From positions 4,739,893-4,803,892 of the forward strand of contig NC_049997.1 in NCBI RefSeq assembly GCF_000003815.2: DNA of 64,000 bases. Reading direction: 5' to 3'. The stretch comes from Branchiostoma floridae (lineage: Eukaryota; Chordata; Leptocardii; Amphioxiformes; Branchiostomatidae). Positions 1 through 48,460 of this stretch are shown one piece after another. Each line of letters starts with the position of its first letter. Within the stretch, counting starts at the first letter, position 1. The position numbers and the translations under genes are program-made. Under the pieces are notes generated by a model. The model was given only the letters and a program-made list of their open reading frames with translations, ran no database searches and was not told where the DNA came from.

Positions 1-174
1 ACCGTATGTCAGCTTGTAAGGGTATTGTCCGGTAGCATGCGCTTCGAAGGAAATATGGTAGGGGGCGAAAATAACTACACATATACACCTACCAAGGTTT
101 TCTGCGTTATGTTTGTTGCTCATCTTTGTTTTAGATGTTTGGGTGAAGAAATTTCTCCGCCACCCGTTTTTTTT

Positions 175-745
175 TGCATTTTGCGACTTGCAGTCGCAAA
201 ATGCCTTCTGGCCAGTGTAATCGCCGTTGTGATGTTGAGATGAACGGACCTGTTCAATCCATGCCAAACATTTGTATACCTGTTAAAACAGGCATTTCTT
301 CAACATGTTCGCACTAGCGCAGTGGTAAAGTTTACGAATTCTAAACCAATGCACCCGGTTCGAATCCGGGGAGGTAGATTTTTTCCAACTTTTTTTTCTT
401 CTTTTTTACATCCATTAAAATACTAATTTTTACATCCATTTGGCCACACCAATTTATTTCTTTGGTTAACGGATTCGCCGCTTCGTTTTTTTGCCGAATA
501 GAAATAAAAATTAAAAAAAAAAACTTAAAAATGCCCCGCAACAGAGCTCACTCAAAAACAGGCAATGTGTAGTGAAATTTGCTGCAGTTCACGCAAATTT
601 TAACAGGTGGCGTCTAGATCTGCTGCAGTTCAGGCACATATGTGAATCTCTCCATGCGTTCTATTTATATGACATTCTAATAACTAGAAAAAAACGTTCA
701 CACACGCAAACATTGGCAAAATGCCAGCTTTTTTAAAAGCACTTG
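175..745. mobile_element. Left-arm-only insertion with hairpin end
   Basis: The right arm runs directly from the sequence matching about 1-174 to that matching about 746 onward (near 48120), so these roughly 570 bases are an insertion in the left arm or a deletion in the right. It starts with a perfect 13-bp hairpin (gcattttgcgact, then tgc, then its reverse complement) at about 176-204 and carries a tRNA-like Pol III unit. The element class is not clear: the hairpin recalls a Helitron end, but no CTRR end was seen. Confidence 0.5.
308..384 (+). repeat. tRNA-derived Pol III unit (SINE head or tRNA pseudogene)
   Basis: An A box (TAGCGCAGTGG, 315-325) and a B box (GGTTCGAATCC, 357-367) are well formed. 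The T arm pairs perfectly (CCCGG 354-358 with CCGGG 366-370), and a run of six T at 379-384 would end Pol III transcription. The 5' and 3' acceptor strands do not pair and no good anticodon stem is visible, so this is a SINE head or tRNA pseudogene, not a working tRNA. Confidence 0.6.
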
Positions 746-999
746 TTTATTGGGTTATGACAAAATAAATAAAAAGAAAGAAGACTAGACAAGAGGGAGG
801 TTTTTTTTTCACTGTTTTCATTTTTCTTCAACATTTCAAAGAACATACAAGAGAAGAAGGAAAGCAAAAGGGATGTGTGAAGCTACCGACTACATGCTTC
901 TTTTATCGAAATATACTGATGTCATCCTTCTACGCAGGGACATACATCAGCGAAACCGCCTGTCTGGATGTATCTTTTTAGAGCAATTTGTCCGCGCGT

Positions 1000-1268
1000 G
1001 CACAATTGCACCATCCTTTTGAAAGGAAATAACTCGGGAAGGGGTTGACGGATCATCGTGATTTTTTATATGTAGATAACTTCGGAGATGCTTTCCATAA
1101 ATTAGGGATATCAATGCAACCCAGGAGCTAGTTTGCATAATAAATGAGCACAGTTTATTAAGCCACAGTATTTCTCCAGTATGTAATTAGAAAAGAAGGA
1201 AAGATCGATAGACATCAATTATTCAAATCGTTACTTAATTCACTTAATTATGAGAGATTGTTATTATA
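1000..1268. repeat. Interspersed repeat family copy
   Basis: This contains a sequence block (ccgtcaaccccttcccgag near 1035-1055, read on the minus strand) that recurs with variation near 29875, 33730, 47810 and 48610. It is a dispersed noncoding family in this locus. The copy near 47810 is the right-arm partner of this one; the others are independent copies. Ends were not resolved. Confidence 0.5.
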
Positions 1269-1952
1269 GAGTTAATTCCAAGCCACCGAGATGGTTTTGA
1301 AATAATATTTGTAATAAGTTTGAACTATTTTGAGTAAAAGAACATTTCAGTCACTAAATTTCGAAACTGTTCAAACATTTTAAAATGAAAGTTTAAACAT
1401 GTTTGAACCTTTTTATATTTGTTGGAACATTTGGGAAAGCAATGATATAATTATCTCTTTATTTAGAACAATTTTCAAACATCTATGTGTTTTTGCTATT
1501 GTTCCAACATGTTCCAACATTTTGTGTCATTTTTTCCCTCCATAAAAACTTTTATTGACCCCATAAACAAAGCTGCTAAGCTTGGTCCTTTGTTTGGCTC
1601 TTGGAAAGGTGGCAGACAGACATAATTTCCTGCACTTGGCAGGGATGTGTGAATTGCCCTCTTCCCAGCCCACTGCTCCACTGACCCAGTTTCATCATAT
1701 TGTTTCCATGTTCGAACATGTGATTACAAATGATGCATCTATATTGGAACAGTTTAGAAACTAACAGAAATAATGTATTTGATGTTAGAAACGTTTCTAA
1801 CATGTTTGAATACTATATGAATATTTAGAACGTCACATAGATGTTATAAATAGTTCTAAACAGTTACTTATCACAGTTAGATTGTTACAAAGATTTCCAA
1901 AATGTTAGAACAAAAGGCAAGAAACACCATCTCGGTAATATGGAATCGACTC
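1269..1952. mobile_element. TA-flanked nonautonomous DNA transposon, copy 1
   Basis: The ends are inverted: GAGTTAATTCC at 1269 and GGAATCGACTC ending at 1952, flanked by TA at 1267-1268 and 1953-1954. The right arm has the empty site (about 47567) with a single TA. It is 684 bp with no transposase-like reading frame. The TA duplication suggests mobilisation by a Tc1/mariner-type transposase. A second copy lies at 12910-13637. Confidence 0.85.
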
Positions 1953-3242
1953 TAGTGTTAAGTGATGAAAAGTTCATTCTTCCAACATTTGGTAGCAACA
2001 TGTACGTTAAGTTGAACATGCGGACGTAAGTCACGCAAATTGGGGTCTCATTTATATAATTCATGAGAAAATGCTACAATAGCTTTCTTTGCTAAAACTT
2101 TCATACTTTGAACAAATTGTTATTCAGGTAGAGGAAACCAACTGACATTTTTCATGCAAATGAGTACCTCATTTGTATAATTGATGAGAAAAATTTATGA
2201 TTATAGTCACTCGTCACACAAGAGATCGCCTTTCGTGTTAACAGCAATGCCCTACAAACATCCATCGCGTAAAACAATCTTCATACATACATACAGCCAG
2301 GCGAAAGGATAGAACACAAATACAACACACCTACAGCAACAATAATTAATACTTATAAACAATAAAACCGTCACCATGGCAATAGCTTTTAATGCCACGC
2401 TTATTGTTGTTATACTTTTTAATTCAAGTTAAATTAAACCTAAAAGCAACCAATTGAATTGGTGTGAGATTATTATGAGTAACATGCTCTCCTTTCAAAA
2501 GCTGAGGGAATTTTGCTTTACAACACACTAATCAAATCAAAACAAAGTAATCAGTTCTTTATTTGCAACTACTAAGTTAACTGTTCATTACGTACTCTTC
2601 AAGAAGGAAAGAAGGGGGATTGATTGAAATGCTCACTATACTATGCTAAATGTTCCACAGAGCCAAGTTCCCACCCGAATTACAAGTCAGTTTCAAATTT
2701 CAAACTTTGTTATAACGGAATCAGCATATGGCCGTATCAGTTGTATGAAAAATTAACAAAAGAGATACATAACAAGACGCTACCATTTGCTAAATTTAGT
2801 ACTCCTAATCCCTACCAGAGTGTCAAGTAAGGTCACTGCCTGTTATTCTCGATTACTTCATCGGCCATTTTGGCGTTTTGTACTGTAACGGTCGGTGTTT
2901 CGCTCAAAGGCCACGTTATGCCTGTAAAGCAATTTACGAAAGCAATTTACGCAACTTTCTTCACTTCACTCAGGTGTAAACGTGTGCCTAGCTTTGGAAA
3001 GGGACGTCCCTCGGATGGTTTACAACAATTTTAGAAAGCAGGCGCTATATCATTAGATACAATCAGTATTTCGAATTGGAACTCCCATCACCATGTGTTC
3101 TTGAAGTGCTATACATTGTCGCTGATGAAATTGTGCAACAAAAATTAGTCATTTACTAAAGCGTTTGTGTTTTTATCCTGACCACAACAAAACATGATTT
3201 TGACTCATTCGGCTAAGCCAAAGCCAGTTTAGTTTGTACATC
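1953..3242. other. Intergenic DNA and lectin 3' flank, no further gene seen
   Basis: No coding exon was recognised. A minus-strand AATAAA (written TTTATT, 2558-2563) is a candidate poly(A) signal about 680 bases past the lectin stop; its right-arm partner is at 46968-46973. Around 2920-3020 lies a diverged piece of the SINE body also seen at 51266-51442, with a partner at about 46518-46600. The rest is AT-rich. Confidence 0.5.
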
Positions 3243-5014
3243 TCAAGCACAGGCCATCCAGTGGACACTGGCAGAGTACAGCAACGAATCTTCCCACGTG
3301 CCGAGTGCCACCATGAGGCTTGTCTTGGTGGCGCTTAACACTCGGGCTTTGACGCGGATGTTAGTATTAAGGACGTGGTCCACATGCGCCAAGCCGATGG
3401 TCACCATGGGGATTGTGCGGAAGGCCCTACTAAACGTGGCTTCCAGGTGTAGGAATCGGAGTCCAGTTGCCGAGCCGGTACTGAACACACCATCATATGG
3501 TGTTTCCATCAAACCAGACTCACCTGAAGCAACAACAACAATAACACAAACAATGAAACCTACACTAATCATGTGCTTGCAAAGACAGCAAGATTTGCTC
3601 CCCTTATTGTTATGACTCACCTATGCAATTACGACGAACGGCCATACGATTATTACTCACTGCTAAGGCTAACGTTACATTTCCAAACCGGGGCCCGGAC
3701 AGACTGTTTGTGGAAATGAAAAATAGAAATGAATACGTGAAAATATACACAAATAATGCCCATGACTATTACGTCTTGTGTACTTTGGTGTCTTTTATAT
3801 CATAGTTTTCGTTCTTTAACCCTATTCAGACCGGGCTTTTTTGGTCATCCCTGGACCGGGGGGGGGCTTTTGAGGCCCTCCACTTCTAAGTCCTATAACT
3901 CTAAAACGACGTGTCGTAGGGCAACCAAATTTTCAGGACATGATTTCGACATAATATCTGACAAGTATTTTACGTTTGACGTTACGTTGACGTAAGATGA
4001 CGTAATTATGACGTCATCAATTTGATTACATTGGCCAAACCCATGAAAAATGGGTATTCTCAGAAAACTTCAAGTTATGCTACAAAAATGTAACAACAAG
4101 AGCAGATAACAGAATAATAATGTTTGTTACGACTTGCGTTGCCAATATCAACATCAATGACGTCAATATGACGTCATAAAATGACGTCATGCACATCTAA
4201 GATACGAGTTGGGCTCCGCCATATTATATCCACCACCTTGAATTTTTAAAAATACTTTTTTTGCAACAAATAATCACAAAGGGCAATGGAAATAGACTAA
4301 ATTCATTCATTTAGATGGTTTTTGATTAAAAAATACCAGGTAGTTGCAACTTTTAAGGGATAATTTGCTTGTTTTTCATGATCTGGCCATTCCGTCCGCC
4401 ATCTTGGATTTTGGGCTGATGACGTCATCAAATTAGCATAATTTATGCATATATGATTATGAAAGATATGCTGAATAATATAAGATTTTATTTATGTAAC
4501 AAAATCACAGTAATATAGCAAATAAATTTGAAAAATACATTGTTAGAACCAAAAATAGTGATTTTTGGCAAAACTGCCTGTCAACAAACGGTTGCCATGG
4601 CAACAAGAAAAAATGGAAAATTTGTCAAACTTCGTAGAATTGTTGCCAACAATATTTTAGGAAAACTCACTAAATTTGGTGGCTCTAGCGTAAGCCGTTC
4701 TGGCATTATAGGACATCGAAGTTAGCGCGGGCCTCAAAAGCCCCCCCCCCGGTCTGAATAGGGTTAAAGCTGCCCGACCGGGTCCCAATTGGGAAATGTG
4801 ACGTAGGCAAAAACAATTATCTGCTCTCTTTATGTCTTACATCATCTCTCTCTCTCTCTCTCTGTCTGTCTCTCTCTGTCTCTTTGTCTCTCTCTCTCTT
4901 TGTCTCTCTCTCTCTCTGTTTGTCTCTCTCTGTCTCTATCTCTCTGTCTCTCTCTCTCTCACTGTCTCTCTCTGTCTCTCTTTCTCTCTCTCTCTGTCTG
5001 TCTCTCTGTCTCTG

Positions 5015-5064
<50 letters not shown>

Positions 5065-7197
5065 CCGGTGAGTCCCGCGAGGGGTATTGCCCAGTATTAC
5101 GTAGATGTAGATGTCTCTCTGTCTCTCTTTCTCTCTCTCTCTCTTTCTCTCTCGCTCACTCTCTCTCGCTCGCTCGCCCGCTCCAGACAACAACTTCTCC
5201 ACCCATTGACCACCAGTTCAATTCCCAATACTTCATTTTATACGCCTCCTTTAATGATTTTAATCATCATCACTACTTACAGCGTTCGATGTACTCCCGC
5301 TGTTCCATGCCTTCCAGAGAGCCGTGAAGGGCGCTAATGGTCGAGTTGAGCTCGCCTTGGCCCGCCTGGAGTTTTGCGATTTGGCTTTGGAAAGGCTACA
5401 TTGGCACAACCCATAATATTGAATGAATGAATGACCTTAATTGTACATTTGTGCTCAAACAAGCTAAGTACAGATCGTAGCGCTAGTGATAAGGTACAAT
5501 TTTGACAAAACGGTATCTTATCATCTCTACATATGCTAATACATTCTAGTATGTACAAGTTCAACTTCTTCTCGCTTCTTAAAACAGTTATAAACATACG
5601 GACAGATGGAATCAATAATGTCTGGTTTATCTAGTTGCACGAGAAATATGAATTTTTCCGTGGTATTCAAGTATCAGAAATTAGGATGCACTAAGCTATG
5701 GGACTGACTGACTAACTGACCACATATACGTGTGTGTGTGGGGGGGGGGGTAGTCTTTTTAGTAAGCCACGCTCACACACAATGTGCGATTTTCAGCGAG
5801 GGGCCTACGACGGTTCTACAACTGTCCGAAGAGTTCCCCTACTACTTGTTTTAAACTTGTAAATCTGTCGTGCGACGTACACGGACAAAATTACCTGCAT
5901 GTGTATGCAGTTTGCAGGTTTGACCAACATTGTGCCAAGTGCTACCTGCCTGTAAAGCGATTGGTTTCGCCAAAGACTTAAAAATGGATTTAATCGATAC
6001 AAAAATAGAAGCATGTGCGTTATTCTAAAGCTAAGGGCACAACCCGCCGTACGTACAAATACGTGCTGTCTACGTGCCAAAACGTGGGCAATCTTTTGGG
6101 ATACGAAAGTGGTAAGTACCGCCTCCGTACGAACTCGTAGGGAATCCGACGGATTTTGGAGCACGCAGAGACGCCGTAGAACTTTACGTGCAGGCAAAAC
6201 TCTGTGTGCCATCGGGCTGCGGATTCGACCCACCTACGTGCTAGTACGGGCGACGCGCCTGCCCTGTACAGCCTGAACGTTTTTAGATATACGTGGCGGA
6301 CGTGGCCTCCCATGAAAACGTACGGACAAATTGCACGTACGGCGGGTTGTGCCCTTAGGTTAAAGGACAGTTATACCGGCTCTAGGCCCCAATGAAACGG
6401 CTAATAAAATACATGTACAAATACTAACTAAAACTGACCTTCATTCTGGACAGTAGTTCATTGATGCCTTCAAATCTACCCCGGATGGTCTTCATCTCAG
6501 TGTGCAACTGTGTCACCCATCCTGTCAAGCGGAGATGTACTCTTTAATTTTTTTACAGTAAACTATTCCCGTAAATATTTCTACAAATTGGAATCTAAAT
6601 ACTTCTTTCTTGGGAACACTGAATAATTTGACATATCTTAAAGCTTTATAAACAATACGTCTAATGTGATTGTGCCAAGACATACTGAAGCTAACAACAA
6701 CCCCGATATGCATATGACTAGAAAATGATAGATTTTCTGAGAAAAAGAGGGGAATGGATCGGGCGGATTCTTTTGGACCTTCTCTTTAGTTTAAGCAGGG
6801 TTTAATTCCATTAGCCTCTTGGTACACCAATATTGATTTTTTTCCAGGTCCCATATAAGTTGAAACACGACATCGACGGATTGTCAATGACTTAAAGCAG
6901 TGCACTGTCGTCAGCGAAAAGAAAAGGGACGTTTAGTTACTATTAGAAGTTACTACTACAATTATTATGCACTGTAAAATACTCCAAAAAGGGTTAATCT
7001 ATCTATTTATAGACAACTATACAAACTGTTGCAGTGAAGCGTCATTCCTTACCGTTTATCTTTTGGACGGATTCCTTGAGAGAGTTGATATCCGACTGGA
7101 GGTTAGAGTTGCTGTTGATGCCTATGGGCGCTGTGTTGATGCCTTTGGGCGTCACCATCAACAGGAACAGTACAAGGGACGGTGACAACAGCGGCAT
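3243..7197 (-). CDS. Secreted H-type lectin with coiled-coil stalk, left copy
   Basis: Four exons: 7197-7053, 6521-6439, 5395-5281 and 3523-3243. All have GT-AG junctions, and the phases (1, 0, 1) join into one 207-residue frame. Residues 1-22 form a hydrophobic signal peptide (MPLLSPSLVLFLLMV...). Residues about 50-114 are a heptad-like helical stalk (…LHTEMKTIRGRFEGINELL…) ending in a Cys whose codon is split by intron 3. The last exon fits the H-type lectin domain: F..AF...P.V..GL..VD......R.KAR....TK.....GTW.DS..YSASV.W. This family (snail agglutinin, discoidin C-terminus) binds sugars, often GalNAc, as trimers; the specificity here is unknown. The ATG is preferred because it begins the signal peptide directly before a spliced frame. 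Intron 2 carries a 328-bp MITE, and intron 3 a CT repeat and a left-only TTAA element. Confidence 0.85.
3820..4763. mobile_element. piggyBac-type nonautonomous element (TTAA target) in lectin intron 3
   Basis: The terminal inverted repeats are CCCTATTCAGACCGGG at 3820 and CCCGGTCTGAATAGGG ending at 4763, each flanked by TTAA (3816-3819, 4764-4767). The right-arm lectin intron has one TTAA and no element, so the insertion is precisely defined. It is 944 bp, rich in tgacgtcat-like words, with no transposase frame. TTAA duplication and CCC ends are typical of piggyBac-mobilised MITEs. Confidence 0.88.
4844..5178 (+). repeat. CT/CTGT microsatellite (two blocks)
   Basis: A long impure (tc)n and tctg array spans 4844-5068, with a second block at about 5113-5178. 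It sits in lectin intron 3; the partner in the right arm, written as GA repeats, is 45418-45603 and is shorter. Long Ser/Leu reading frames across it are repeat artefacts. Confidence 0.9.
6031..6358. mobile_element. 328-bp MITE with long inverted ends, lectin intron 2 (left)
   Basis: It begins CTAAGGGCACAACCCGCCGT and ends with the reverse complement of nearly the same sequence (ACGGCGGGTTGTGCCCTTAG). The interior is rich in cacgta/cgtacg words, so reading frames appear on both strands. The same insertion is at 44238-44565 in the other lectin copy, so it predates the split of the arms. A separate copy is at 8557-8884 and a fragment at 23152-23215. The target duplication is unclear. Confidence 0.8.
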
Positions 7198-7199
7198 GT

Positions 7200-7335
7200 T
7201 GGCTCCTCTATGGTCCTGCTAGTGCTCCAATCCCTTTATGAGTTAGAAGGTCCTGGGTTCGGTTCCCGTTTTTGGTTCCATACAGTATATAGTAGAGTGG
7301 ACTCATCCCTCAGCTAACCGCACCGCAGTCAGCCC
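7200..7335 (+). repeat. tRNA-like B-box repeat near the lectin start
   Basis: A GGTTCGGTTCC box lies near 7257-7267, preceded by a T-stem-like 'cctgg' and followed by 'cagtatatagtagagtgg'. It lies directly upstream of the lectin ATG on both arms (partner about 43250-43385). It is probably a SINE fragment. It may form part of the lectin 5' region; no clear core promoter for the lectin was seen. Confidence 0.4.
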
Positions 7336-7389
7336 TCAGTAAGACATCTGGAGCCGCAAGTTTCTGAACCTTTATCCAGCCTGTAGGTC

Positions 7390-7426
7390 AAACCGGTTTC
7401 GTTGCGTACAACTTCTTCAGTGGCTA
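7390..7426 (-). ncRNA. Hammerhead-like fold (left copy)
   Basis: Read on the minus strand, this is GCCA, CTGAAGA, A, GTTG-TACG-CAAC, GAAA, CCGG, TTTGAC. The CTGANGA and GAAA core blocks of a hammerhead ribozyme flank a 4-bp stem. The closing stem I is weaker than in the right copy (43146-43183) because of one mismatch. One extra A lies between the core and stem II, so activity is doubtful. Confidence 0.35.
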
Positions 7427-7460
7427 GAGGCTAAATGACACAAGTTCGTGAAGCTCGCAC

Positions 7461-7660
7461 TTATATGCCTTTCCAGTGCATAATGCCCTGGTATCTATCC
7501 AGTGCATATCGCCCTAGTGCATGGTGCCCTACGTATACAGGGCTTTTCGTTATGTATGACCTTACTTGACTTATATACCTTTTCATTGCATAGTACTCTG
7601 GTAACTATCCAGTGCATATCGCCCTAGTGCATGCTGAACTACGTATACAGGGCTTTTCTT
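7461..7660 (-). repeat. Tandem ~110-bp promoter-like repeats (left)
   Basis: Two direct repeats each contain a 'tatataagt'-like TATA word on the minus strand, 'atgcactggatag' and 'cctagtgcatggtgccctacg'-type words. The array ends just before the hammerhead-like fold, in the orientation expected of a promoter feeding it. The partner on the right arm is 42913-43115. Confidence 0.55.
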
Positions 7661-7733
7661 ACTTGACCTCTTGTAGTGTGACTTCATCCATTGTTTTAGA
7701 ACAGTTACGTATGTCACAGAGGTTCCCTTTACA

Positions 7734-7985
7734 CTATCGAGAATAAAGAAAAACAGCCTTCTTCAGTATGTTGCCCCCTCCTTTTTGCTGTCTCATTGCT
7801 CTGGCTTGTAGCTCTGGCTTGTAGCTCTGGCTTCTCAGCATCTTGTAGGGCTTAAACAACACGTAGACGACGTTCCTGGGACTCTCTTTTCTCGATGGTG
7901 CGGTTGACGGTGGTGTCTTGGTTCCCTGTGTGGTTCGTCTTGGTGTCTTCCTTGTGTCTGATGTGGCGGCAGTGTTGTAGTCCAT
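7734..7985 (-). pseudogene. Basic low-complexity reading frame, retroelement-like remnant
   Basis: An 83-codon frame (MDYNTAATSDTRKTPRRTTQG...) rich in Thr, Arg and Lys. The right-arm partner at 42600-42779 aligns but stops earlier (…SYKPEQ). It lies upstream, on the same strand, of the TATA-containing tandem repeats and hammerhead-like fold, so it could be the tail of a retroelement protein. I do not recognise the family. Confidence 0.3.
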
Positions 7986-8556
7986 TGCGCGTCTCTGTAG
8001 AGGGCTTGACTTGCTTCTGCCTTCTTTGTCTTTATTTTAAGCACCAACTTCATTTTGTTGAGGGCTCAGGCACTGAAAGTAAAGGGGTTACTTTCTTGGG
8101 TGCAAGTGCAGGTGGTCTGTGGGACTGGTTGGAGGCTTTTGGCTCCTCGGTGGGCAGGGGCGCCGCTCCCTGACTGCCGTGTTGTTGTGTGGCGGTGAGT
8201 ACCGAGGTCAGGGTTAACACTATATTGGGTTCCACCAAAAACACATGATGTTTCATTTCCGTGCTTTATAGACATTTTAAGCAAGTGCCCCAAAAGGGAT
8301 TATTTCCTCAAACTCCGCTAAACAAGATACAGAGCACTATCCGAGTCTGTTTCCGTGTGGTTTTTGTAGGTTTTGCTTTAAGTCTAGTACACCGTAAAAG
8401 CTACTAATTAAATTGGTGTGAGGTTACACCGCGTGACGTGTTCTTCCTTTCAAAGCTGTGGGAATTTTGTTTTTATGTAACAAAAATTAAATCAAAACAA
8501 ATCCTACCCCTGACTCGTGTATAGCGGGTACGTCATGACCGAACATGCCCCTAAAG

Positions 8557-8884
8557 CTAAGGGCACAACCCGACGTACATGCAATTTGTGCGTACGTTTT
8601 TCTGGGAGGCCACGTCCGCCACGTATTTCTGGAAACGCCCAGGCTGTACAGGGCAGGCGCGTCGCCCGTATTGGTACGCACGGGGGGCAAATCCGCAGCT
8701 TGATGGCACGCAAAGTTTTGCCTGCACGTAAAGTTCTACGGCGTGTCTGCGTGCTCCAAAATCCGTCGGATTCCTTACGAGTTCGTACGGAGGCGGTACT
8801 TACCACTTGCAGATCCCAAAAGATTGCCCACGTTTTGTCACGTAGACAGCACGTATTTGCACGTACAGCGGGTTGTGCCCTTAG
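8557..8884. mobile_element. 328-bp MITE, left-only copy
   Basis: Same family and same length as 6031-6358, with inverted ends CTAAGGGCACAACCCG and its complement. The flanks are themselves inverted (acatgcc… on one side, …ggcatgt on the other), so the true ends may lie about 14 bases further out. Absent from the right arm. Confidence 0.8.
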
Positions 8885-8899
8885 CTAAAGGCATGTCAC

Positions 8900-9027
8900 T
8901 GCCACAAAGGCCTGCTACTGCCACTAGCTGCAGCTAGGTACCCAAGGGCATAAGATCGGTGACACGGCAGTCAAATTCGACCTCAGGACCGCTTGGGGCT
9001 GAGCCCAACGCGCTGTCGAATGCGCCA
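8900..9027 (-). repeat. tRNA-derived SINE fragment
   Basis: On the minus strand it starts 'gcgcattcgacagcgcgttgg' and runs to '…ggtcgaatttgac' followed by 'accgatcttatgcccttgggtacctagc'. The body words match the SINE at 51266-51442. Confidence 0.6.
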
Positions 9028-9153
9028 TGCAAACGGAAGTATATATGGCATGCACATATATATATATATATATATATATCTGCATCTGCATAGGATACCC
9101 CCAAATGACCCCGCGAGGGGCAAAAGTAGGGGGGGGAGCTGAGGCTCCCGGGT

Positions 9154-9189
<36 letters not shown>

Positions 9190-9584
9190 TGGTACAGGAT
9201 CAGCCGAAATGCAGGAGATCTAGAGAGAGGGAGAGAAAGAGAGCTACACAGACAGATCTTGATAGACAGAGGGACACACACGCGCACACACACACACTCA
9301 CAGAGAAGGTTTTCTGAACGTGTCAATATGATTGAAGTCAACTTATAAGGTCAAATAATAATTCCAAATGTAAATTATCAGTTTAGTTAATTTAAAATTA
9401 TGAAAACACATTAAATCCTTTTTTAAAGTTTTTTCGAAGTTCAAACAAAAATGCCACTGTCCTTCGTTTTGCCAACACCACCTACAAAACCAAACGACCT
9501 AATACCTTCGCCAAATGATTTAAACTTTTACAAACGATATATCAATTGTGTGTTGTTATTTATGCCAATAAGGTTCTTACTTAC

Positions 9585-9905
9585 ATAAACTATGATAGTT
9601 GACCATCTCCTCCACCAAAATTACAAACTTTCACAATCTAGTTTGTATTCTAATAATAATCTACCACTCAAAAGCCATTATTACATCTTGTCAAGAAGTA
9701 GAGATATCAGCCCAAAAGTTCCGCTGCAGTACTGTAACAAGCCGCTGTAAAGGAGGCCCAAGTTCTAATCGTTTCCAGGTCAGATACCAAATACCAAAGC
9801 AAGCCATCCGAGGTGCTCTCGAGTTATGCTGGTCTTCTATACACAACCACACATACTCACATACAGGGGTTACCCAAAATATAACCTTCTTGGCGAAGGT
9901 AGAAA
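9585..9905. repeat. Dispersed repeat ending in ACCTTCTTGGCGAAGGT
   Basis: The terminal palindromic word lies at 9884-9900, right beside the P450 stop codon. Internal blocks ('gaggtgctctcgagttatgctggtcttct', split across 9810-9840) recur near 30950, 41340 and 48880. The right-arm partner starts at about 41284. A dispersed noncoding family whose hairpin end is consistent across copies. Confidence 0.6.
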
Positions 9906-10036
9906 CTAACGCGGTATCGCACTGAACTGGAACGGATGCGGAGTCAAAGTCGGACCGAAAACGCCGTCAGTGTTTGGACGAGAAGCTCCTTCTGGCGTTT
10001 TGAATGTGAACGACTCACTTAGGCACCCTCGTCGGC
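9906..10036 (-). pseudogene. Orphan last exon of a CYP2-like P450, internally deleted (left)
   Basis: A clean acceptor (tttccag) at 10037 opens a frame reading RRGCLSESFTFKTPEG... to …FSAIPR and a stop. RRGCLxE carries the cysteine that ligates haem in P450s. Compared with 41098-41279, 16 codons after RRGCL are missing (the following helix) and one more codon is lost near the end. Both losses keep frame. No other P450 exons were found upstream, so this is a gene relic. Confidence 0.75.
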
Positions 10037-10280
10037 CTGGAAACAACAAATACCCAGTTGTGAGATCACTCACTTTTGGAATAGCTGTTTATTTGTTTTG
10101 CGTACCCGGTCAGCCTCCTTTTGGCTCAACACATCACGTTTGTACGTAAGTACAAGACAATTTCGGGGCAGATTTATTTGATCCACTCACACTAGGAAAG
10201 ACCCTTACGCTTTTTTATAAGTGATGTTGGTTCTTAAAAGTGCTCGCAGTGTGGTTCTCCTCAAACACAGGACCTCTATA

Positions 10281-10808: not shown

Positions 10809-10998
10809 GGCCATTAAACGTCACCTGCATTGGCATTTCCGTTCATAAATCCAACTGCGCATGTGCAGGTCAAAGGTGAAAGCACGAAGATATAAAGAAA
10901 ACACGTCTGGACATTAGTATGCAAACCGGCTGCCACGGACGAGGTTTTTTTTTTTGGTGACAAGTCCTAATTGTAGCGTTGGAATGACTTAACTGGTA

Positions 10999-12794: not shown

Positions 12795-12800
12795 TTTATT
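12795..12800 (-). promoter_or_regulatory. Candidate poly(A) signal of left LRR receptor
   Basis: AATAAA on the minus strand, about 1026 bases past the stop. The partner signal at 38086-38091 is 299 bases past its stop. The difference (about 727) equals the TA-flanked element that sits between stop and signal in the left arm only. Confidence 0.5.
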
Positions 12801-23150: not shown

Positions 23151-23151
23151 G

Positions 23152-29290: not shown

Positions 29291-29304
29291 AGCAAAAATA
29301 AAAA

Positions 29305-34880: not shown

Positions 34881-34882
34881 CT

Positions 34883-37787: not shown

Positions 37788-39666
37788 AATAACATTCTGA
37801 AGGATACACAACATTCTTTCAGCTTTGCAAGTAAAAAAAAATGTTAAGATTTGTTTCGAAAAGCTAACCACTATGACCAAAGTGAGATGCTCATTTGAAA
37901 TTTGGGAGATTGCATTTGAAAAATTCTTTCGGATTAATTGCGTGTGTGCAAAAATGAATATTAGTGACATGTTTTTTTTGGTACTATGTAAATATTGTAT
38001 TGTATGTAAGTGTTATGTGTATACGTATCCAGGGCCCCAATGAAAAGCAGTGTTTGTCACTGATGGGGGCTTACCCTGATAAATGAATAAAAGCAACAAC
38101 AATGTCAAGTAAAACATTATCTCAAGCTTGTAACTTAAATGTGAAACCTGATTATCACTGTCCGTCCAAAGTTCTTGTCGTGACTGAATTGCTAGCAAAA
38201 TATATGGACATCTCCTGAAAATAATCTTTTAAACAAATGTTTACATCTGCTTATCGTTTTATGATTGTCATGTCTCATAATATGTACTTAAAAAACCAAC
38301 AGGGTATTTCCATTATTCTTTACGTGATTTTATCTATACCGTAGCAATTATTACCCGAAGAATGATGTATTTCTGAAGATTTTGAATTAAGTAAACTTGT
38401 TCCTTAGTATTTCTCCCAGAGTGTATGAATATGTACATATGTGATCTGAAATGGACAGGCACACTGTGTGACTGTGTACCTTACCTTAGATCCTCCATCA
38501 ATACTGTTGCATTGTGTGTGTACCAAGCATGTATTATTGCTCATCAGTAGCCATACATATGATTTGTATTTCATTGAATACATTCAGTTGTGTACGACAT
38601 ATAGTACTTATCATGAAAAGAATTTGTGGCTTGGAAAGTATGATACGTAAATTGCTTATATGGCCAAATAGAAGTCATGATGTTGCTACTAGCATTTGAT
38701 TTTCTTTATTATGAAATGTCATCTATTAAACCCTTTTGTTGTATTACTCTTTTATTATCAACATTGATGCTCTTGTTTTCACAAAACAAAGGATACTTCA
38801 TAAAATATACTGTATGTACAGCACTATGATATGTTTCAGCTCAGACACAAGCAGAGAAATTATTGTATACTGCTTTTTCATGGAATCTTGAAAGACGTAT
38901 TACAGCGGAGGTAAACTAAGCAATTATCTTCTTGAACTAGTTTAACTGTAATTTACAACACAAAAATTGAAGCAATTATGTTCTTCATAAGCTCTGAGTA
39001 GAGATGTAATGTTGTCCGAATTTATCTACTTCAACAATATTTGGCAAAATCCACTCAATTCTTCATACCATTTGCTATAATTATTGAGTCATTTTGCAGG
39101 GTGACAGTGTGTCTTTAGTACTGGTCTTATGTACCACCGTGCTACCAAGTGAGGATTGCTTTCAATTCTTTTTGGAAGAAACATAAAAAACTGTCACCTA
39201 TTAAAAGGCATGTTGTTATACAATTATAGACTTGTATTTCGAACGTACATTTTGTATAGAAGTGACAGGAAGTAGTTGAGAGAATAGGTCTCACCTTGTA
39301 TGCTGAATGTGTAGTTTCTTTTATTAAAAATGTAAATCTACATTTAATGGTAAGACTTATCTTTGATTCACAGTACACACAATGAATCCCGACTAGGGCT
39401 AGGGGACACATTACATATACAGAGAACGGCCCTTCACGCGTCCTTGATATTCAAGCACAATTTGCAACTGAAAACTATTGATAAGTAAAAAATCTGGATT
39501 ACAATTAGCTTATTACCGATTTTGTTTCTGTGGTTATTGTTTAATACAGAATGTTATAAATGAAACGAGACATTAAAACCACTGCAATTCCTTAGAAACC
39601 CGCAGAAATGGCAAAGTGCCCCGAATGGGCCCGATGACTGCAAATCTAGTTTTGATAAATGCTCTA
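37788..39666. other. 3' region of right LRR gene and AT-rich intergenic DNA
   Basis: AATAAA at 38086-38091 is the candidate poly(A) signal. At about 37985 is the single-TA empty site of the element present at 12910-13637. No gene was recognised between 38100 and 39660. Confidence 0.5.
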
Positions 39667-39867
39667 ACGCTAGTTCACCTTTTTCCGCGTGGTATCCTAT
39701 ATCCGTTGTTTTGCCGAACATGGTTTAGGGATATTCATATCAATTCGACGAATGGTGGTTTCAAATTACAATTTCCTTAATTTCAAATGATGCCATTTGA
39801 AATCATCATCTGTCGTTTTTAGAAACAACGGATATAAGTTACTCCGCGAATAAAGGTGAACTAGCGT
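39667..39867. mobile_element. 201-bp MITE with TA target (right)
   Basis: Partner of 10999-11195, with ends ACGCTAGTTCACCTTT / AAAGGTGAACTAGCGT and TA on both sides. Confidence 0.85.
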
Positions 39868-40046
39868 TACCAGTTAAGTCATTCCAACGCTACGATTAGA
39901 CATGTCAAAAAAAAAAAAAACTCGTCCGTGGCAGTCGGTTTGCATACCAATGTCCAGACGTATTTTCCCTATATCTTAGGGCTTTCACCTTTGACCTGCA
40001 CATGCGCAGTTGGATTTATGAACGTGACGTTTAATGGCGCTAGGTA

Positions 40047-40853
40047 CGAGGGGTGATAAAGAGTTCTCGGCCTCACCCAGACATGATTAGAACAACTCAA
40101 ATACAGTACAATAAAATGCTTAATTTTGGGATTTTTTTGACCAAAAACGTTCTTGTTCCCTGGTCTTATAACCAAATGACCTAAATTTTGGTAAATAGGT
40201 GCACTAGATATTCATTGAAATGACCCATGCATAGTTCTGGCATAAACCACTTCAAAATTATATATTTGGGGATTTTTTAGGTTGTACTGGAAGAGTCCAT
40301 TCTTACATGGAGGGTGAATCCATAAAATTTAGTTTTAGACGGGTGATGATTCAATATTCCACTTTTAGCGGAAGTGTTTTTGGACTGGTCTATATTACCT
40401 TTGCATGCCGTTTTTGCTTAGTTTAACTTCGGACTGTCCGCTGACTTCTACTCGGAAATCCTCCTCAAAGTAACTGGATTAAAAGTAGGACGTGGTCATA
40501 ATAAAAGGCCATGTTTTCAGTGGGAGTATTTCAGGACTGGTCTATTGTGCAAATTCACATGGGGTGCACTGGAAGAGTCCATTCTTGCACTGGGAATTTT
40601 GTAAGATTCGTTTTGGGGTGTCATTAAGTGTCATTAGTAGAAGTGACTTTTAAACAAAAGTGTTCCATTTTTGCATATGGGTGATTTTGGAATAGTCTAT
40701 TGTTGCATGGGGAGGGAGATGGCTGAAATATGCTGTATTTGCTCTCAAGCAAATGTCGGCCTTTCTAGTAGACTTTATACTTGACATCTCGAAATCTGAG
40801 ATGTGTTTATTATTTCTGGGTGAGGTCGAGGACTTATTGATCACCCCTCATAC
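40047..40853. mobile_element. Inverted-end element, right version with different interior
   Basis: Ends match 10281-10808 (tacgaggggtgataaagag…cctcaccc and ggtgaggtcgaggactt…cccctcatac). Near one end about 60 internal bases also match, but most of the interior is unrelated to the left copy and about 280 bases longer. It contains repeated 'ggactggtctat' words. Confidence 0.55.
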
Positions 40854-41097
40854 CATAGAGGTCCTGTGTTTGAGGAGATCCACACCGCGAGCACTTTTAA
40901 GAACCCACATCACTTATCAAAAAGCGTAAGAGTCTTTCCTAGTCTGAGTGGATCAAATAAGTCTGCCCCGAAATTGTATTGTACTTACGTACAAACGTGA
41001 TGTGTTGAGCCAAAAGGAGGCTGACCGGGTATGCAAAACAAATAAACAGCTATTCCAAAAGTGAGTGACCACACAACTGGGTATTTGTTGTTTCCAG

Positions 41098-41279
41098 GCC
41101 GGCGAGGGTGCCTTGGTGAGCAGCTGGGCAGGATGGAGCTTTTCCTGTTCTTTTCGACCCTGCTGCAGTCGTTCACATTCAAAACGCCAGAGGGAGCTTC
41201 TCGTCCAAACACTGACGCCGGCGTTTTCGGTCTGACTCTGACTCCGCATCCGTTCCAGTTCAGTGCGATACCGCGTTAG
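41098..41279 (+). pseudogene. Orphan last exon of a CYP2-like P450 (right)
   Basis: An acceptor (tgtttccag, ending 41097) leads into a 60-codon frame: RRGCLGEQLGRMELFLFFST… then …TLTPHPFQFSAIPR and TAG. This is the family pattern for the haem-binding loop end (RxxCLGE, Cys = haem ligand), the L helix and the C-terminal strand of CYP2-type P450s. The exon is intact, but the upstream K-helix and I-helix exons were not found in the 3 kb before it, where a MITE and noncoding DNA lie. A relic is the simplest reading; a very long intron is the alternative. Confidence 0.75.
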
Positions 41280-41283
41280 TTTC

Positions 41284-41510
41284 TACCTTCGCCAAGAAGG
41301 TTATATTTTGGGTAACCCCTGTATGTGAGTATGTGTGGTTGTGTGTAAAAGACCAGCATAACTCGAGAGCACCTCGGATGGCTTGTTTTGATATTTAGTA
41401 TCTGACCTGGAAACTATTAGAATTTGGGCCTCCTATATAGCGGCTTGTTATAGTACTGCAGTAGAACTTCTGGGTTTAATATCTCTACTTCTGGATATGA
41501 TGTGGTAATG
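41284..41510. repeat. Dispersed repeat starting ACCTTCGCCAAGAAGGT (right)
   Basis: Partner of 9585-9905. It begins four bases after the P450 stop codon. Confidence 0.6.
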
Positions 41511-41666
41511 GCTTTTGAGTTGGCTTAAATCTAGTTATGAAAAAATTAGCCAAGATTAGACTTTCTAAAGTTCCTTCTTTAGGACATATTGTTTGTAAGG
41601 CGGTGTCGGCAAAACGAAGGACAGGAGCATTTTTGTTTGAAAAAAGGATCTAGATCTGTCTGTATA

Positions 41667-41774
41667 GTTCTCTTTCTCCTCCTCTCTCTAGATCTCCTCC
41701 ATTTCGGCTGATCTTCTACCATATTTCTCTCTCAATCTCTCCATATCTCTCTTTCTCTCTTTCTCTCTGTCTCT

Positions 41775-41808
<34 letters not shown>

Positions 41809-41809
41809 A
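41667..41809 (+). repeat. CT microsatellite
   Basis: Impure (tc)n tract followed by 'acacgagtcaggggtagg'. It occupies the place of the left-only composite insertion at 8525-9165. Confidence 0.85.
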
Positions 41810-42119
41810 CACGAGTCAGGGGTAGGATTTGTTTTGATTTAATTTTTGTTACATAAAACAAAATTCCCACAGCTTTTAAAGGAAGAACACGTCACTCTGT
41901 GTAACCTCACACCAATTCAATTAGTAGCTTTTACGGTGTACTAGACTTAAAGCAAAACCTACACAAAAAACACACGGAAACAGACTCGGATAGTGCTCTG
42001 TATCTTGTTTAGCGGAGTTTGAGGAAATAATCCCTTTTTGGGCACTTGCTTAAAATGTCTATAAAGCAGGGAAATTAAACACCATGTGTTTTTGGTGGAA
42101 CCCAATATATGACCTCGGT

Positions 42120-42380
42120 CTGCTCTCAATTAGCGTGCTTCCATGTCCTTATTTCAGGTCATTCTAATTAGTTTTAATTAGTTTTGGCTAAGGCTACACA
42201 AATAGACCGAAGGCTTACGAAATGTTTAGACACATAGGATTAAAAACTGGCTGCATGGGCCTTGTCCCCTGAATGCACATTGGGACTGAACTTACATTTG
42301 CGAACAGTTTGGAGCGTTCGTTCGGTGCTTCCCAAAAAACTAAGTAATCCCGTACATCACAGGAAGACCAAAGTCTACGG
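42120..42380. mobile_element. Right-only ~260-bp insertion
   Basis: Left-arm sequence runs on directly (near 8195-8215: tgagtaccgaggtca) where the right has about 260 extra bases between 'atgacctcggt' and 'gggtactcgcc'. No clear ends or coding content. Confidence 0.5.
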
Positions 42381-42599
42381 GTACTCGCCGCCACACAACA
42401 ACACGGCGGTCAGGGAGCGACGCCCCTGCCCACTGAGGAGCCAAAAGCCTCCAACCAGTCCCACAGACCACCTGCACTTGCACCCAAGAAAATAATCCCT
42501 TTACTTTCAGTGCCTGAGCCCTCAACAAAATGAAGTTGGTGCTTAAAATAAAGACAAAGAAGGCAGAAGCAAGTCAAGCCCTCTACAGAGACGCGCAAT

Positions 42600-42779
42600 G
42601 GACTACAACACTGCCACCACATCAGACACAAGGAAGACACCAAGAAGAACCACACAGGGAACCAAGACACCACCGTCAACCACACCATCGAGAAAAGAGA
42701 ACTACAGGAACGTCGCGTACGAGTTGTTCAAGCGCTACAATATGCTGAGAAGCCAGAGCTACAAGCCAGAGCAATGATA
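42600..42779 (+). pseudogene. Basic low-complexity reading frame (right copy)
   Basis: 59 codons (MDYNTATTSDTRKTPRRTTQ… YKPEQ). Partner of 7734-7985, which runs 24 codons longer. Family not recognised. Confidence 0.3.
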
Positions 42780-42912
42780 CAGCAAGAAGGAGGGGGCAAC
42801 ATACTGAAGAAGACTGTTTTTCTTTATTCTCGATAGTGTTAAGGGAACCTCTGTGACATATGTAACTGTTTTAGAACAATGGATGAAGTCACACTATAAG
42901 AGGTCAAGTAAG

Positions 42913-43115
42913 AAAAGCCCTGTATACGTAGGGCACCATGCACTAGGGCGATATGCACTGGATAGTTACCAGAGTATTATGCAATGAAAAGGTATATAAG
43001 TCAAGTAAGGTCATACATAGCGAAAAGCCCTATATACGTAGGGCACCATGCACTAGGGCGATATGCACTGGATAGATACCAGGGCGTTCTCCACTGGAAA
43101 GGTATATAAGTGCGA
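42913..43115 (+). repeat. Tandem 108-bp promoter-like repeats (right)
   Basis: Two direct copies start 'gaaaagccctgtatacgtag' at about 42913 and 'gaaaagccctatatacgtag' at about 43021. Each ends with 'aaaggtatataagt', a TATA-like word. The second TATA lies about 40 bases before the hammerhead-like fold, as a promoter repeat of a retroelement might. Confidence 0.6.
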
Positions 43116-43145
43116 GCTTCACGAACTTGTGTCATTTAGCCTCTA

Positions 43146-43183
43146 GCCACTGAAGAAGTTGTAGGCAACGAAACCGGTTTGGC
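43146..43183 (+). ncRNA. Hammerhead-like fold (right copy)
   Basis: GCCA (43146-43149) pairs with TGGC (43180-43183) as stem I. CTGAAGA is at 43150-43156, then one extra A, GTTG-TAGG-CAAC (43158-43169) as stem II, GAAA at 43170-43173, and ACC/GGT as a loop-less stem III. This resembles the minimal hammerheads of Penelope-like elements, but the extra A and a GUU cleavage triplet would weaken it. Confidence 0.4.
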
Positions 43184-43388
43184 CGACAGACTGAATAAAC
43201 GTTCAGAAACTTGAACTATGCGGCTCCAGATGTCTTATTGAGGGATGACTGCGGTGCGATAGATGTCGTTTAGCTGAAGGATGAGTCCACTCTACTATAT
43301 ACTGTACGGAACCAAAACGGGAACCGAACCCAGGACCTTCTAACTCATAAAGGGATTGGAGCACTAGCAGGACCATAGAGGAGCCAGC

Positions 43389-46255
43389 ATGCCGCTGTTG
43401 TCACCGTTCCTTGTACTGTTCCTGTTGATGGTGACGCCCAAAGGCATCAACACAGCGCCCATAGGCATCAACAGCAACTCCAACCTCCAGTCGGATATCA
43501 ACTCTCTAAAGCAATCCGTCCAAAAGACAAACGGTAAGGAATGACGCTTCACTGCAACAATTTGTATAGTTGTCTATAAATAGATAGTCTAACCCTTTTT
43601 GGAATATTTTACAGTGCATAATTGTAGTAGTAACTTGTAATAGTAACTAAACGTCCCTTTTCTTTTCGCTGACAACAGTGCACTGCTTTAAGTCATTGGC
43701 AATCCGCCGATGTGTAGTTTCATTTATATTGGACCTGGAAAAGAAATCACTATTGGTGTACCATGTGGCTAATGGAATTAAATCTCGCTTAAACTAAAGA
43801 GAACGTCCGAAAGAATCCGTCCGATCTATTCCACTCTTTTTCTCAGAAAATCTATATCTATCATTTTCTAGTCATATGCATATCGGGGTTGTTGTTAGCT
43901 TCAGTATGTCTTGGCACAATCACGTTCGAAGTATTGTTCTTAAAGCTTTAAGATATGTCAAATTATTCAGTGTTCCCAAAAAAGAAGTATTTAGATTCCA
44001 ATCCGTAGAAATATTTACGGGAATAGTTTACTGTAAAGAAATTAAAGAGTACATCAGCATTCTCCACTTGACAGGATGGGTAACACAGTTGCACACTGAG
44101 ATGAAGACCATCCGGGGTAGACTGGAAGGCATCAATGAACTACTGTCCAGATTGAAGGTCAGTTTTAGTTAGTATTTGTACATGTATTTTATTAGCCGGT
44201 TCATTGGGGCCTAGAGCCGGTACAACTGTCCTTTAAGCTAAGGGCACAACCCGCCGTACGTGCAATTTGTCCGTACGTTTTCATGGGAGGCCACGTCCGC
44301 CACGTATATCTAAAAACGTTCAGGCTGTACAGGGCAGGCGCGTCGCCCGTACTACGAGCGTAGGTGGGTCGAATCCGCAGCCCGATGGCACACAAAGTTT
44401 TGCCTGCACGTGAAGTTCTACGGCGTCTCTGCGTGCTCCAAAATCCGTCGGATTCCACACGAGTTCGTACGGAGGCGGTACTTACCACTTTCGTATCCCA
44501 AAAGATTGCCCACGTTTTGGCACGTAGACAGCACGTATTTGCACGTACGGCGGGTTGTGCCCTCAGCTTTAGAATAACGCACAGGCTTCTATTTTTGTAT
44601 CGATTAAATCGATTTTTAAGTCTTTGGTGAAACCAATCGCTTTCCAGGTGTGTAGCACTTGGCACAATGTTGATCAAACCTGCAAACTGCATACACATGT
44701 AGGTAATTTTGTCCGTGTACGTCGCACGACAGATTTACAAGTTTTAAACAAGTAGTAGGGGAACTCTTCGGATAGTTGTAAAACCGTCGTACGTCCCTCG
44801 CTGAAAATTGCACATTGTGTGTGAGCGTGGCTTACTAAAAAGACCCCCCACACACACACACGTACATGTGGTCAGTTAGTCAGTCAGTCCCATAGCTTAG
44901 TGCATCCTAATTTCCGATACTTGAATACCACGGAAAAATTCATATTTCTCGTGCAACTAGATAAACCAGACATTATTGATTCCATCGGTCCTTATGTTTA
45001 TAACTGTTTTAAGAAGCAAGAAGAAGTTGAACTTGTACATACTAGAATGTATTAGCATATGTAGAGATGATAAGATACCTTTTTGTCAAAATTGTACATT
45101 ATCACTAGCGCTACGACCTGTACTTAGCTTGTTTGAGCACAAATGTACAATAAAGGTCATTCATTCATTCAATATTATGGTTTGTGCCAATGTAGCCTTT
45201 CCAAAGCCAAATCGCAAAACTCCAGGCGGGCCAAGGCGATCTCAACTCGACCATAAGCGCCCTGCACGGCTCTCTGGAAGACCTGGAACAGCGGGAGTAC
45301 ATCGAACGCTGTAAGTACTGATGATGATTAAAATCGTATAAGGAGACGTATAAAATGAAGTATTGGGAATTACACTGGTGGTCAATGGGTGGAGAAGTTG
45401 CTGTCAGGAGCGGGCGAGCGAGCGAGAGACAGACCGAGAGAGCGAGAGAGAGTGAACGAGAGAGAGAGAGAGAAAGAGAGACACAGAGAGAAAGTGAGAG
45501 AGAGAGAGAGAGAGAGAGAGGGAGAAAGAAAGAGAGAGAGAGACAAAGAGAGAGAGAGAGACAAAGAGACAGACAGAGAGAGAGACAGACAGAGAGAGAG
45601 ATGGTGTAAGACATAAAGAAAGCAGATAATTGTTTTTGCCTACGTCACATTTCCCAATTGGAACCCGGTCGGGCAGCTTTAAAGAACGAAAACTATGATA
45701 TAAAAGACACCGAAGTACACAACACGTAATAGTCATGGGCATTATTTGTGTATATTTTCACGTATTCATTTCTATTTTTCATTGCCACAAACAGTCTGTC
45801 CGGGCCCCGGTTTGCAAATGTAACGTAAGCCTTAGCAGTGAGTAATAATCGTATGGCCGTTCGTCGTAATTGCATAGGTAAGTCATGGCAATGAGGGGAG
45901 GAAATCTTTCTGTCTTTGCAAGCACGTGATTAGCGTGCGTTTCATTGTTTGTGTTACTGTTGTTGTTGCTTCAGGTGAGTCTGGTTTGATGGAAACACCA
46001 TATGATGGTGTGTTCAGTACCGGCTCAGCAACTGGACTCCGATTCCTACACCTGGAAGCCACGTTTAGTAGGGCCTTCCGCACAATCCCCATGGTGACCA
46101 TCGGCTTGGCGCATGTGGACCACGTCCTTAATACTAACATCCGCGTCAAAGCCCGGGTGTTTAGCGCCACCAAGACAAGCCTCATGGTGGCACTCGGCAC
46201 GTGGGAAGATTCGTTGCTGTACTCTGCCAGTGTCCACTGGATGGCCTGTGCATGA
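43389..46255 (+). CDS. Secreted H-type lectin with coiled-coil stalk, right copy
   Basis: Exons 43389-43533, 44075-44157, 45196-45310 and 45975-46255, all GT-AG with phases 1, 0, 1, giving 207 residues. Architecture as in the left copy: signal peptide (MPLLSPFLVLFLLMV), helical stalk (49-114), Cys115 at the exon 3/4 junction, H-type lectin domain (about 137-206, ending SASVHWMACA). It differs from the left copy at 9 residues, six of them in exons 2-3 and the end of exon 1 and only one in the lectin domain (F for L in KARVFSATK). A single N-glycosylation site (NST) is in the stalk. The Cys and the stalk suggest disulphide-linked oligomers. Candidate poly(A) signal at 46968-46973. Confidence 0.86.
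44238..44565. mobile_element. 328-bp MITE, lectin intron 2 (right)
   Basis: Partner of 6031-6358, same ends and length; one end has decayed to GTGCCCTCAG. Confidence 0.8.
45418..45603 (+). repeat. GA microsatellite in lectin intron 3
   Basis: Impure (ga)n with gaca steps. Inverse partner of the CT tract at 4844-5178 but about half as long. Confidence 0.9.
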
Positions 46256-48460
46256 GATGTACAAACTAAATTGGTTTTCAGGCTTAGCCGAATGAGTCAA
46301 AATCATGTCTTGCTGTAGTCAGGAAAAACAAACTTACCACTTCTGTTTTGCACTCAGCGAAGGCGTCTCGCCCAAACGCTTTAGTAAATGACTAATTTTT
46401 GTTGCACAACAATTGTATCTGTGATGTATTGCACTTCAAGTACACATGGTGATGGGAGCTCCAATTCGAAACACTGTTTGTATCTAATGATATAGTGACT
46501 CTTTTCTAACATTGTCATGTGTAATCCAAGGGACGTCCCTTTCCAATGCTAGGCACACATTTACACCTGAGTGAAGTGAAGAAAGTTGCGTAAATTGCTT
46601 TCTTGAAAGACATAACGTGGACTTTGAGCGAAACACCGACCGTTACAGTACAAGACGCCACAATGGCCGATTAAGTAATCGAGAATAACAGGCAGTGACC
46701 TTACTTGATACTCTGGTAGGGATTAGGAGTACTAAATTTAGCAAATGGTAGCGTGTTGTTATGTATCTCTTTTGTTAATTTTTCATACAGCTGATACGGC
46801 CATATGCTGATTCCGTTATAACAAAGTTTGAAATTTAAAACTGACTTGTAATTCGGGTGGGAACTTGGCTCTGTGGAACATTTAGAATAGTATAGTGAGC
46901 ATTTCAATCAATCCCTCTTCTTTCCTTTTTGAAGAGTACGTGATGAAAAGTTAACTTAGTAGTTGCAAATAAAGAACTGATTACTTTGTTTTGATTTGAT
47001 TTGTGTTTTATAAAGCAAAATTCCCACAGCTTTTGAAGGGAGAACATCTCACTCAGAATAAGCTCACACCCATTCAATTGGTTGCTTTTAGGTTTAATTT
47101 AACTTGAATTAAAAACTATAACAACAATAAGCGTGGCATTAAAAGCTATTGCCATGGTGACGGTTTTATTGTTTATAAGTATTAATTATTGTTGTTGTTG
47201 TAGGTGTGTTGTATTTGTGTTCCTTTCGCCTAGCTGTATGTATGAAGATTGTTTCACGCGATGGATGTTTGTAGGGCATTGCTGTTAACACGAAAGGCGA
47301 TCTCTTGTGTGACGAGTGACTATAATCATAAATTTTTCTCATCGATTATACAAATGAGGTCCTCATTTGCATGGAAAATATCAGTTGGCGTCCTCTACCT
47401 GAATAATAATGTATTCAAGGTATGAAAGTCTTAGCAAAGAAAGCTATTGTAGCATTTTCTCATGAATTATATAAATGAGACCCTAATTTGCATGACTTAC
47501 GTCCGCATGTCCAACTTAACGTACATGTTGCTACCACATGTTGAAAGAATGAAATTTTCATCATTTAACACTACAATAACAATATCTCATTAATTAAAGT
47601 AAATTAAGTAACGATTTGTATAATTGATGCCTATCGATCTTTCCCTCTTTTCTAGTTACATATGTTATTTTTAAATGCCCTAGTAGAAATACTGTGGCTT
47701 AATAAACTGCGTTCATTTATTATGCAAATTAGCCCCTGGTTGCATTGATATCCATAATTTATGGAAAGCATCTCCGAAGTTATCTACATATAAAAAATCA
47801 CGATGATCCGTCAACCCCTTCCCGAGCTATTTCCTTTCAAAAGGATGGTGCAATTGTGCACGCTCGGACAAATTGCTCTACAAAGATACATCCAGACAGG
47901 CTGTTTCGCTGTTGGATGTCCCTGCGTAGAAGGATGACATCAGTATATTTCGATAAAAGAAGCATGTAGTCGGTGGCTTCACACATCCCTTTTTCTTTCC
48001 TTCTTCTCTTGTATGTTTTTTGAAATGTTGAAGAAAAATGAAAACTGTCAAAAAAACCTCTCGTCCCTCTTGTCTAGCTTTCTTTCTTTTTTTGATCTTG
48101 TCATACCCCAATTAGAAAAAAACAGGAGGCGGCGAAATTGCTTCACCCAAAAATCTGAAACAAAGATGAGCAATAAGCATAACGCAGAAAACCTTGGTAG
48201 GTGTTTATGTGTAGTTAAATTCGCCCCCTACCATATTTCCTTCAAAGCGCATGCTACCGGACAATACCCTTACAAGCTGACATACGGTGGAACAAAAAGA
48301 CAATATTCGTAGCCTTACACGACGTTTTGTGAGCAGCAAAAGTTATATGCAAACTAGAGTTCCACGAACACATCTCTCCAAATAATCATGTCTTTATTCA
48401 AGACTTTATGGTGTTATTTATGCATTACTGAAGAGTACCTACCCATATAGCAAACGACTG
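46256..48460. other. Lectin 3' flank and noncoding end of the right arm
   Basis: 46518-46600 is a diverged SINE piece. 47125-47880 carries a repeat (aataagcgtggcattaaaag… to ccgtcaaccccttcccgag) related to 29311-29960. The empty TA site for 1269-1952 is near 47567. Arm homology ends at 48288 only because the window starts there. No gene recognised. Confidence 0.5.

Follow-up and report, generated by a model that had tools for sequence, protein, structure and literature searches.

The gene-conversion palindromes of mammalian sex chromosomes consist of long inverted arms, more than 99% identical to each other, that carry genes and are separated by a short spacer (PMC8981503). Paired copies are also produced by genome assembly, as described for the heterotype false duplication (PMC9516828) and for the heterozygous overlap addressed by purge_dups (PMC7203741), in which two copies from a highly heterozygous diploid appear on one scaffold with a gap between them. 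Such a gap is one of four listed marks of false duplication, the others being half read depth in both copies, haplotype-specific (1-copy) k-mers and discordant read pairs at the join (PMC9516828). Heterozygous overlaps are said to be beyond what scaffolders handle (PMC7203741). In Branchiostoma floridae itself the VCBP2/5 immune-type locus, which has been checked on BAC and PAC clones, shows a difference of 8.6% between alleles, together with large indels, copy-number variation and haplotype-specific inverted repeats (PMC2632668).

For the B. floridae reference, a single diploid animal was sequenced by Sanger reads to approximately tenfold depth; its "two highly divergent haplotypes" were assembled apart before HaploMerger2 and HiRise were applied, and the resulting chromosome assembly was checked by a linkage map in 500-kb windows (PMC7269912). 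An assembly table for the species gives 513.46 Mb with 20,731 gaps in large sequences (PMC9673378). The locus considered here, on NC_049997.1 (C19), resembles each of the above systems in part. It shares long inverted arms, a short spacer and arm-borne genes with the sex-chromosome palindromes, but its arms differ by 6% and its spacer contains an N gap. Like the false duplications it comprises two copies on one scaffold of a highly heterozygous diploid, with a gap between them, although the copies are inverted, and PMC9516828 uses none of the terms 'inverted', 'opposite orientation' and 'head-to-head'. Like VCBP2/5 it is an immune-type locus, but in contrast to VCBP2/5 its symmetry is known from assembly sequence alone.

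Extent of the symmetry and organisation of its centre

The window, by which we mean the whole stretch of DNA that was analysed (64,000 nucleotides), corresponds to C19:4739893-4803892 in a genome assembly of 431 sequences totalling 513,431,437 bases. Raw matches reveal that positions 1-22980 are colinear with the reverse complement of 25917-48288, far beyond chance. Of the 22,980 left-arm bases, 15,276 are aligned in a chain of 16 matches, with 891 mismatches; the remaining 7,704 lie outside the chain and are excluded from these counts. The initial annotation had described reverse-complement arms of 22.4-23 kb; the inverted colinearity is confirmed, but the length is not, as the window cuts both arms. 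In the fetched neighbourhood the colinearity extends from C19:4690001-4762872 to its inverted counterpart at 4765809-4846582, and further out the probes C19:4660280-4662500 and 4645001-4646356 pair in inverted orientation with 4873495-4875724 (97%) and 4888059-4889414 (98%), respectively. No inverted partner of probes C19:4632501 and 4620001 was found among the 40 candidates scored per search, the former having a direct 97% match close by, at 4627654. As judged from the probes, the outer end of the symmetry would lie between C19:4634000 and 4645001. This gives a left arm of no less than 118 kb, or approximately 118-129 kb should the negative probes define its limit, and a right arm of no less than 123 kb. 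A region that had been suggested as a single-copy control, 49000-56000, sits within the right arm. The features of the arms and of the region between them are as follows (window coordinates unless C19 is given; haplotype labels are those of the reading preferred below).

1..22980, + strand: left arm (probable haplotype A), extending left past the window to a total of at least 118 kb
19064..22705, + strand: 3,642 bases exactly identical to C19:4971054-4974695
22981..23249, + strand: start of the next tandem LRR unit, with homologues at C19:4975460, 4997274 and 5010573
23249..23998, + strand: copy of a dispersed repeat, about 750 bp, found in at least 39 other places among those scored
23998..24014, + strand: the 17 bases at which the left contig ends, matching part of the 216-bp satellite unit exactly and in the same orientation
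24015..24114, no strand: run of 100 N separating two different contigs, which are the arms
24115..25738, + strand: 216-bp satellite, 7.5 copies, opening the right contig
25752..25916, - strand: edge of an insertion situated where two LRR units adjoin, at a site likewise occupied at C19:4974978
25917..48288, - strand: part of the right arm that pairs with 1-22980 (probable haplotype B)
48289..64000, - strand: further part of the right arm, with its partner left of the window at C19:4724-4740 kb and containing a tandem-repeat expansion
58637-58736: N gap in this further part of the right arm

Of the two runs of exactly 100 N in the window, one lies inside the supposed 2.9-kb spacer. The unbroken passage from arm through spacer to arm that a true palindrome needs is thus interrupted by an N gap. 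The errors of arm length, spacer and control region in the earlier description arise because this gap went unmentioned and because the arms are cut by the window. A gap between copies is an expected mark of a false duplication, but gaps are common in the B. floridae assembly (10 N runs, 4 of them exactly 100, in the 263 kb examined), and on its own this one is therefore weak evidence.

Arrays related to the satellite are dispersed on C2, C4, C5, C10, C11, C16 and C241, and its pattern had no exact match in viral contigs. The 17 satellite bases that terminate the left contig directly follow the dispersed repeat at 23249-23998. Their orientation, which is that of the satellite in the right contig, argues against simple head-to-head alleles, as these predict opposite orientation. 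Visual inspection shows no target duplication linking the sequences on either side of the dispersed repeat, and hence the left contig may have reached its 17 satellite bases through another copy of this repeat.

The inner edge of the arms can be compared with a cluster of LRR genes situated approximately 0.2 Mb away (C19:4965482-5019911), which contains five further LRR units of 92-97% identity. The sequence that begins a unit, equivalent to 22981-23249, comes after the end of a unit at C19:4997274 and 5010573 and after an insertion at 4975460, and the satellite edge sequence at 25752-25916 recurs as an insertion at the borders of LRR units. Since the former is the start of the next unit and the latter an insertion edge, the junction 22980/25917 marks an insertion between tandem LRR units, and the inner duplication breakpoint expected of a true palindrome is not found there. 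Two of the five cluster units are oriented one way and three the other. Copies c2 and c5 contain long open frames with the same start and c3 a shorter open frame, and the other two are cut by N runs. Inverted units meet in the cluster at C19:4987.6-4989.3 kb with no intervening N, so that LRR units may be genuinely inverted in places, unless this junction too was made by the merging program.

Divergence between the arms

Over the left 72,872 bases, 53,907 bases could be aligned in a chain of 55 matches. Within it the arms differ by 3,236 substitutions (6.00%) and by 404 small indel events (0.75%); the 18,965 bases outside the chain are excluded from these counts. Divergence in 5-kb bins ranges from 3.9 to 10.4% (15 bins), and the non-coding, non-tandem part of the arms in the window gives 610 substitutions in 10,758 columns (5.67%) plus 80 small indels. 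All divergence figures are derived from match chains, because a global alignment was misaligned in places (windows at 21-41%) and its overall value was set aside. Identical runs between the arms in the window reach 229 bases at most. The variance-to-mean ratio of differences in 200-base windows is 2.38, as against 1 for a Poisson and 12.28 for a geometric distribution, a clustering that fits neither and does not discriminate between alleles and a duplication of a single age.

The genome-wide allelic difference in B. floridae has been cited as 6-7% when each indel is treated as a single change (PMC2632668), and the arms, at 6.00% plus 0.75%, are separated by just such an allelic distance. The identity above 99% that is expected of a gene-conversion palindrome is absent, the arms being 6.0% apart in substitutions. 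The divergence of 5.7-6.0% nevertheless exceeds the heterozygosity of 3.2-4.2% and the synonymous diversity of 3.97% given for the species in PMC12862219. Alleles of the Chinese lancelet are reported to differ by 4.39% in SNPs and 0.98% in small indels, with many large indels, and rearrangements extend across 5.15% of its genome (PMC4284660).

Several differences between the arms involve mobile elements. A transposon at 3820-4763 is flanked on both sides by TTAA, and two related transposons, at 1276-1952 and approximately 12905-13637, have TA flanks; by eye, each of the three has an empty site in the other arm, and these differences look like polymorphic insertions. The right arm also possesses a 4.6-kb segment of its own (29306-33883), which adjoins a tandem repeat of approximately 300 bp and in which the single ORF tested gave no Pfam match. 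Elsewhere in the right arm we observed a non-LTR retrotransposon-like element (60332-62981, - strand) with an open reverse-transcriptase frame of 787 codons (PF00078, 5.1e-34) and a weak endonuclease match below the cut-off, and a possible sialin-like transporter exon (54799-55137, - strand), for which the match is weak (E 0.008) and Pfam gave none.

Paired lectin and LRR receptor-like genes

The initial annotation had also noted two copies each of an LRR receptor gene and an H-type lectin gene, and this is borne out by an open LRR reading frame and a PF09458 domain in each arm, all pointing outward from the centre:

3243..3645, - strand: H-type lectin gene, left copy, two predicted exons, 101 residues
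13826..16558, - strand: LRR receptor-like gene, left copy, one open exon of 910 codons
34992..37787, + strand: LRR receptor-like gene, right copy, 931 codons, with one extra 27-residue tandem unit
45853..46255, + strand: H-type lectin gene, right copy, two predicted exons, 101 residues

The two lectin copies match H_lectin (PF09458) with E values of 1.6e-13 and 1.4e-13 (51.0 and 51.1 bits, against a cut-off of 24). Their two-exon model is drawn from the pattern of conservation; the whole 125-codon ORF was dropped as the coding sequence, since its first part is mostly diverged intron. Only 4 of 303 coding bases differ between the copies, 3 of these differences being synonymous, whereas 11 of the 97 bases of the predicted intron differ, in agreement with the earlier observation that coding sequence has stayed alike while the rest has diverged. 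A search of the genome with the lectin returned 32 matches, of which the two above 90% identity are those in the arms and the next, at C19:5050477, is 60% identical, so the lectin is probably represented by one gene per chromosome. More distant relatives form a large family at C3:4434866-4775982 (42-65% identical), and others are found on C12.

Both LRR copies score 127 bits for LRR_8 (Pfam cut-off 27) and resemble vertebrate extracellular LRR proteins, for example the acid-labile subunit and Toll-like receptors. Putative transmembrane and signalling features were recognised by eye, in the form of a hydrophobic stretch and of tyrosine and proline-rich motifs, and an immune role for the protein is plausible. 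An 81-bp (27-residue) tandem repeat is present in the region encoding the cytoplasmic side, at 14145-14225 in the left copy and 37268-37645 in the right. The pair has a dN/dS of 0.855 and a synonymous divergence of 3.0%, but dN/dS does not separate the readings considered below. Pfam gave nothing for 5 of the 10 ORFs in one set and only two matches, both below cut-off, in a second set of seven, and no Rfam match reached the gathering scores in the window.

Origin of the symmetry

Sequence at the ends of the contigs appears to have been used twice. The tract in the LRR cluster to which 19064-22705 is identical starts 28 bases into another contig. The simplest reading of this identity is an unmerged contig overlap, in which case the cluster contig, not the right arm, would be the natural continuation of the left arm. 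Identity between the left arm and the cluster contig stops at 22705, and the sequences separate at 22980, which implies either that one contig switches copies there or that the tract is a recent conversion. A separate case is an 835-bp contig located between two N runs in the left arm, outside the window (C19:4729780-4730614), which equals the right arm with 0 mismatches and 1 gap, and whose flanks match the right arm at 92.7% and 96.5%. This contig looks like a hole in one allele that was filled from the other, a step that we infer was carried out by the merging program.

What is directly observed comprises the N gap, the extent of the symmetry, the level of divergence, the reuse of sequence and the insertion at the inner edge, and on these grounds we consider it very probable that the "palindrome" is a haplotypic (heterotype) false duplication, an artefact of assembly. 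The two possibilities raised in the initial annotation accordingly part company: the head-to-head assembly of two haplotypes is supported by the allelic level of divergence, the documented haplotype-split route of assembly, the N gap and the reuse of sequence at contig ends, and a real inverted duplication of a recognition-gene pair is unsupported. A single segment of at least 118 kb, ending in the tandem LRR receptor cluster, would have been assembled separately from each parental chromosome. Both contigs would have broken at the border of the first and second LRR units, where insertions, satellite and near-identical units are found. The merging step, which we infer to be the one that failed, would have left both contigs in, and scaffolding, presumably guided by contact data, would then have set them head to head over a 100-N gap. 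Each chromosome of the animal would carry a single lectin gene and a single first LRR unit at this position, and there would be no palindrome. It weighs against such an artefact that the merging program is meant to remove copies of this kind and that the assembly was checked by linkage map, albeit in 500-kb windows. A fold-back or chimeric-read artefact was rejected, as it would leave the arms nearly identical.

If the symmetry were instead a real inverted duplication, with arms of approximately 120 kb and a spacer filled by satellite, the gap would exist only because the satellite could not be assembled. The occurrence of one satellite in one orientation on either side of the gap is consistent with this, as are the inverted LRR units that adjoin in the nearby cluster with no N between them (C19:4987.6-4989.3 kb) and the many rearrangements known in lancelets (PMC4284660). 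We nevertheless regard it as improbable, because divergence along 73 kb equals that cited for alleles (PMC2632668), the end of the left contig is duplicated at the start of the LRR-cluster contig that would form its natural continuation, the inner edge is an insertion site, and the left arm contains the allele-like 835-bp patch. A true palindrome would mean that the lectin gene and the first unit of the LRR cluster were duplicated around a satellite, with arms of approximately 118 kb or more that have diverged by 6% without homogenisation. A structural polymorphism, whereby some chromosomes carry inverted extra copies near the LRR cluster that were mixed with the normal allele in the assembly, has a precedent in the copy-number variation and haplotype-specific inverted repeats of VCBP2/5 (PMC2632668), and the nearby cluster does contain LRR units in both orientations. 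Nothing observed requires such a polymorphism, however, and four arm probes outside the LRR units each have one inverted partner (93-98%; 94% for the lectin protein), which makes it very improbable indeed.

A study of gene duplication would accept the symmetry at face value, and the segment therefore deserves a flag. Read as a false duplication, it cautions that immune-gene copy numbers and inverted "pairs" taken from the B. floridae reference can represent two alleles of a single locus. For the lectin, two genes would be recorded where there is probably one, and the LRR family would be counted as seven close copies, of which fewer may exist per chromosome.
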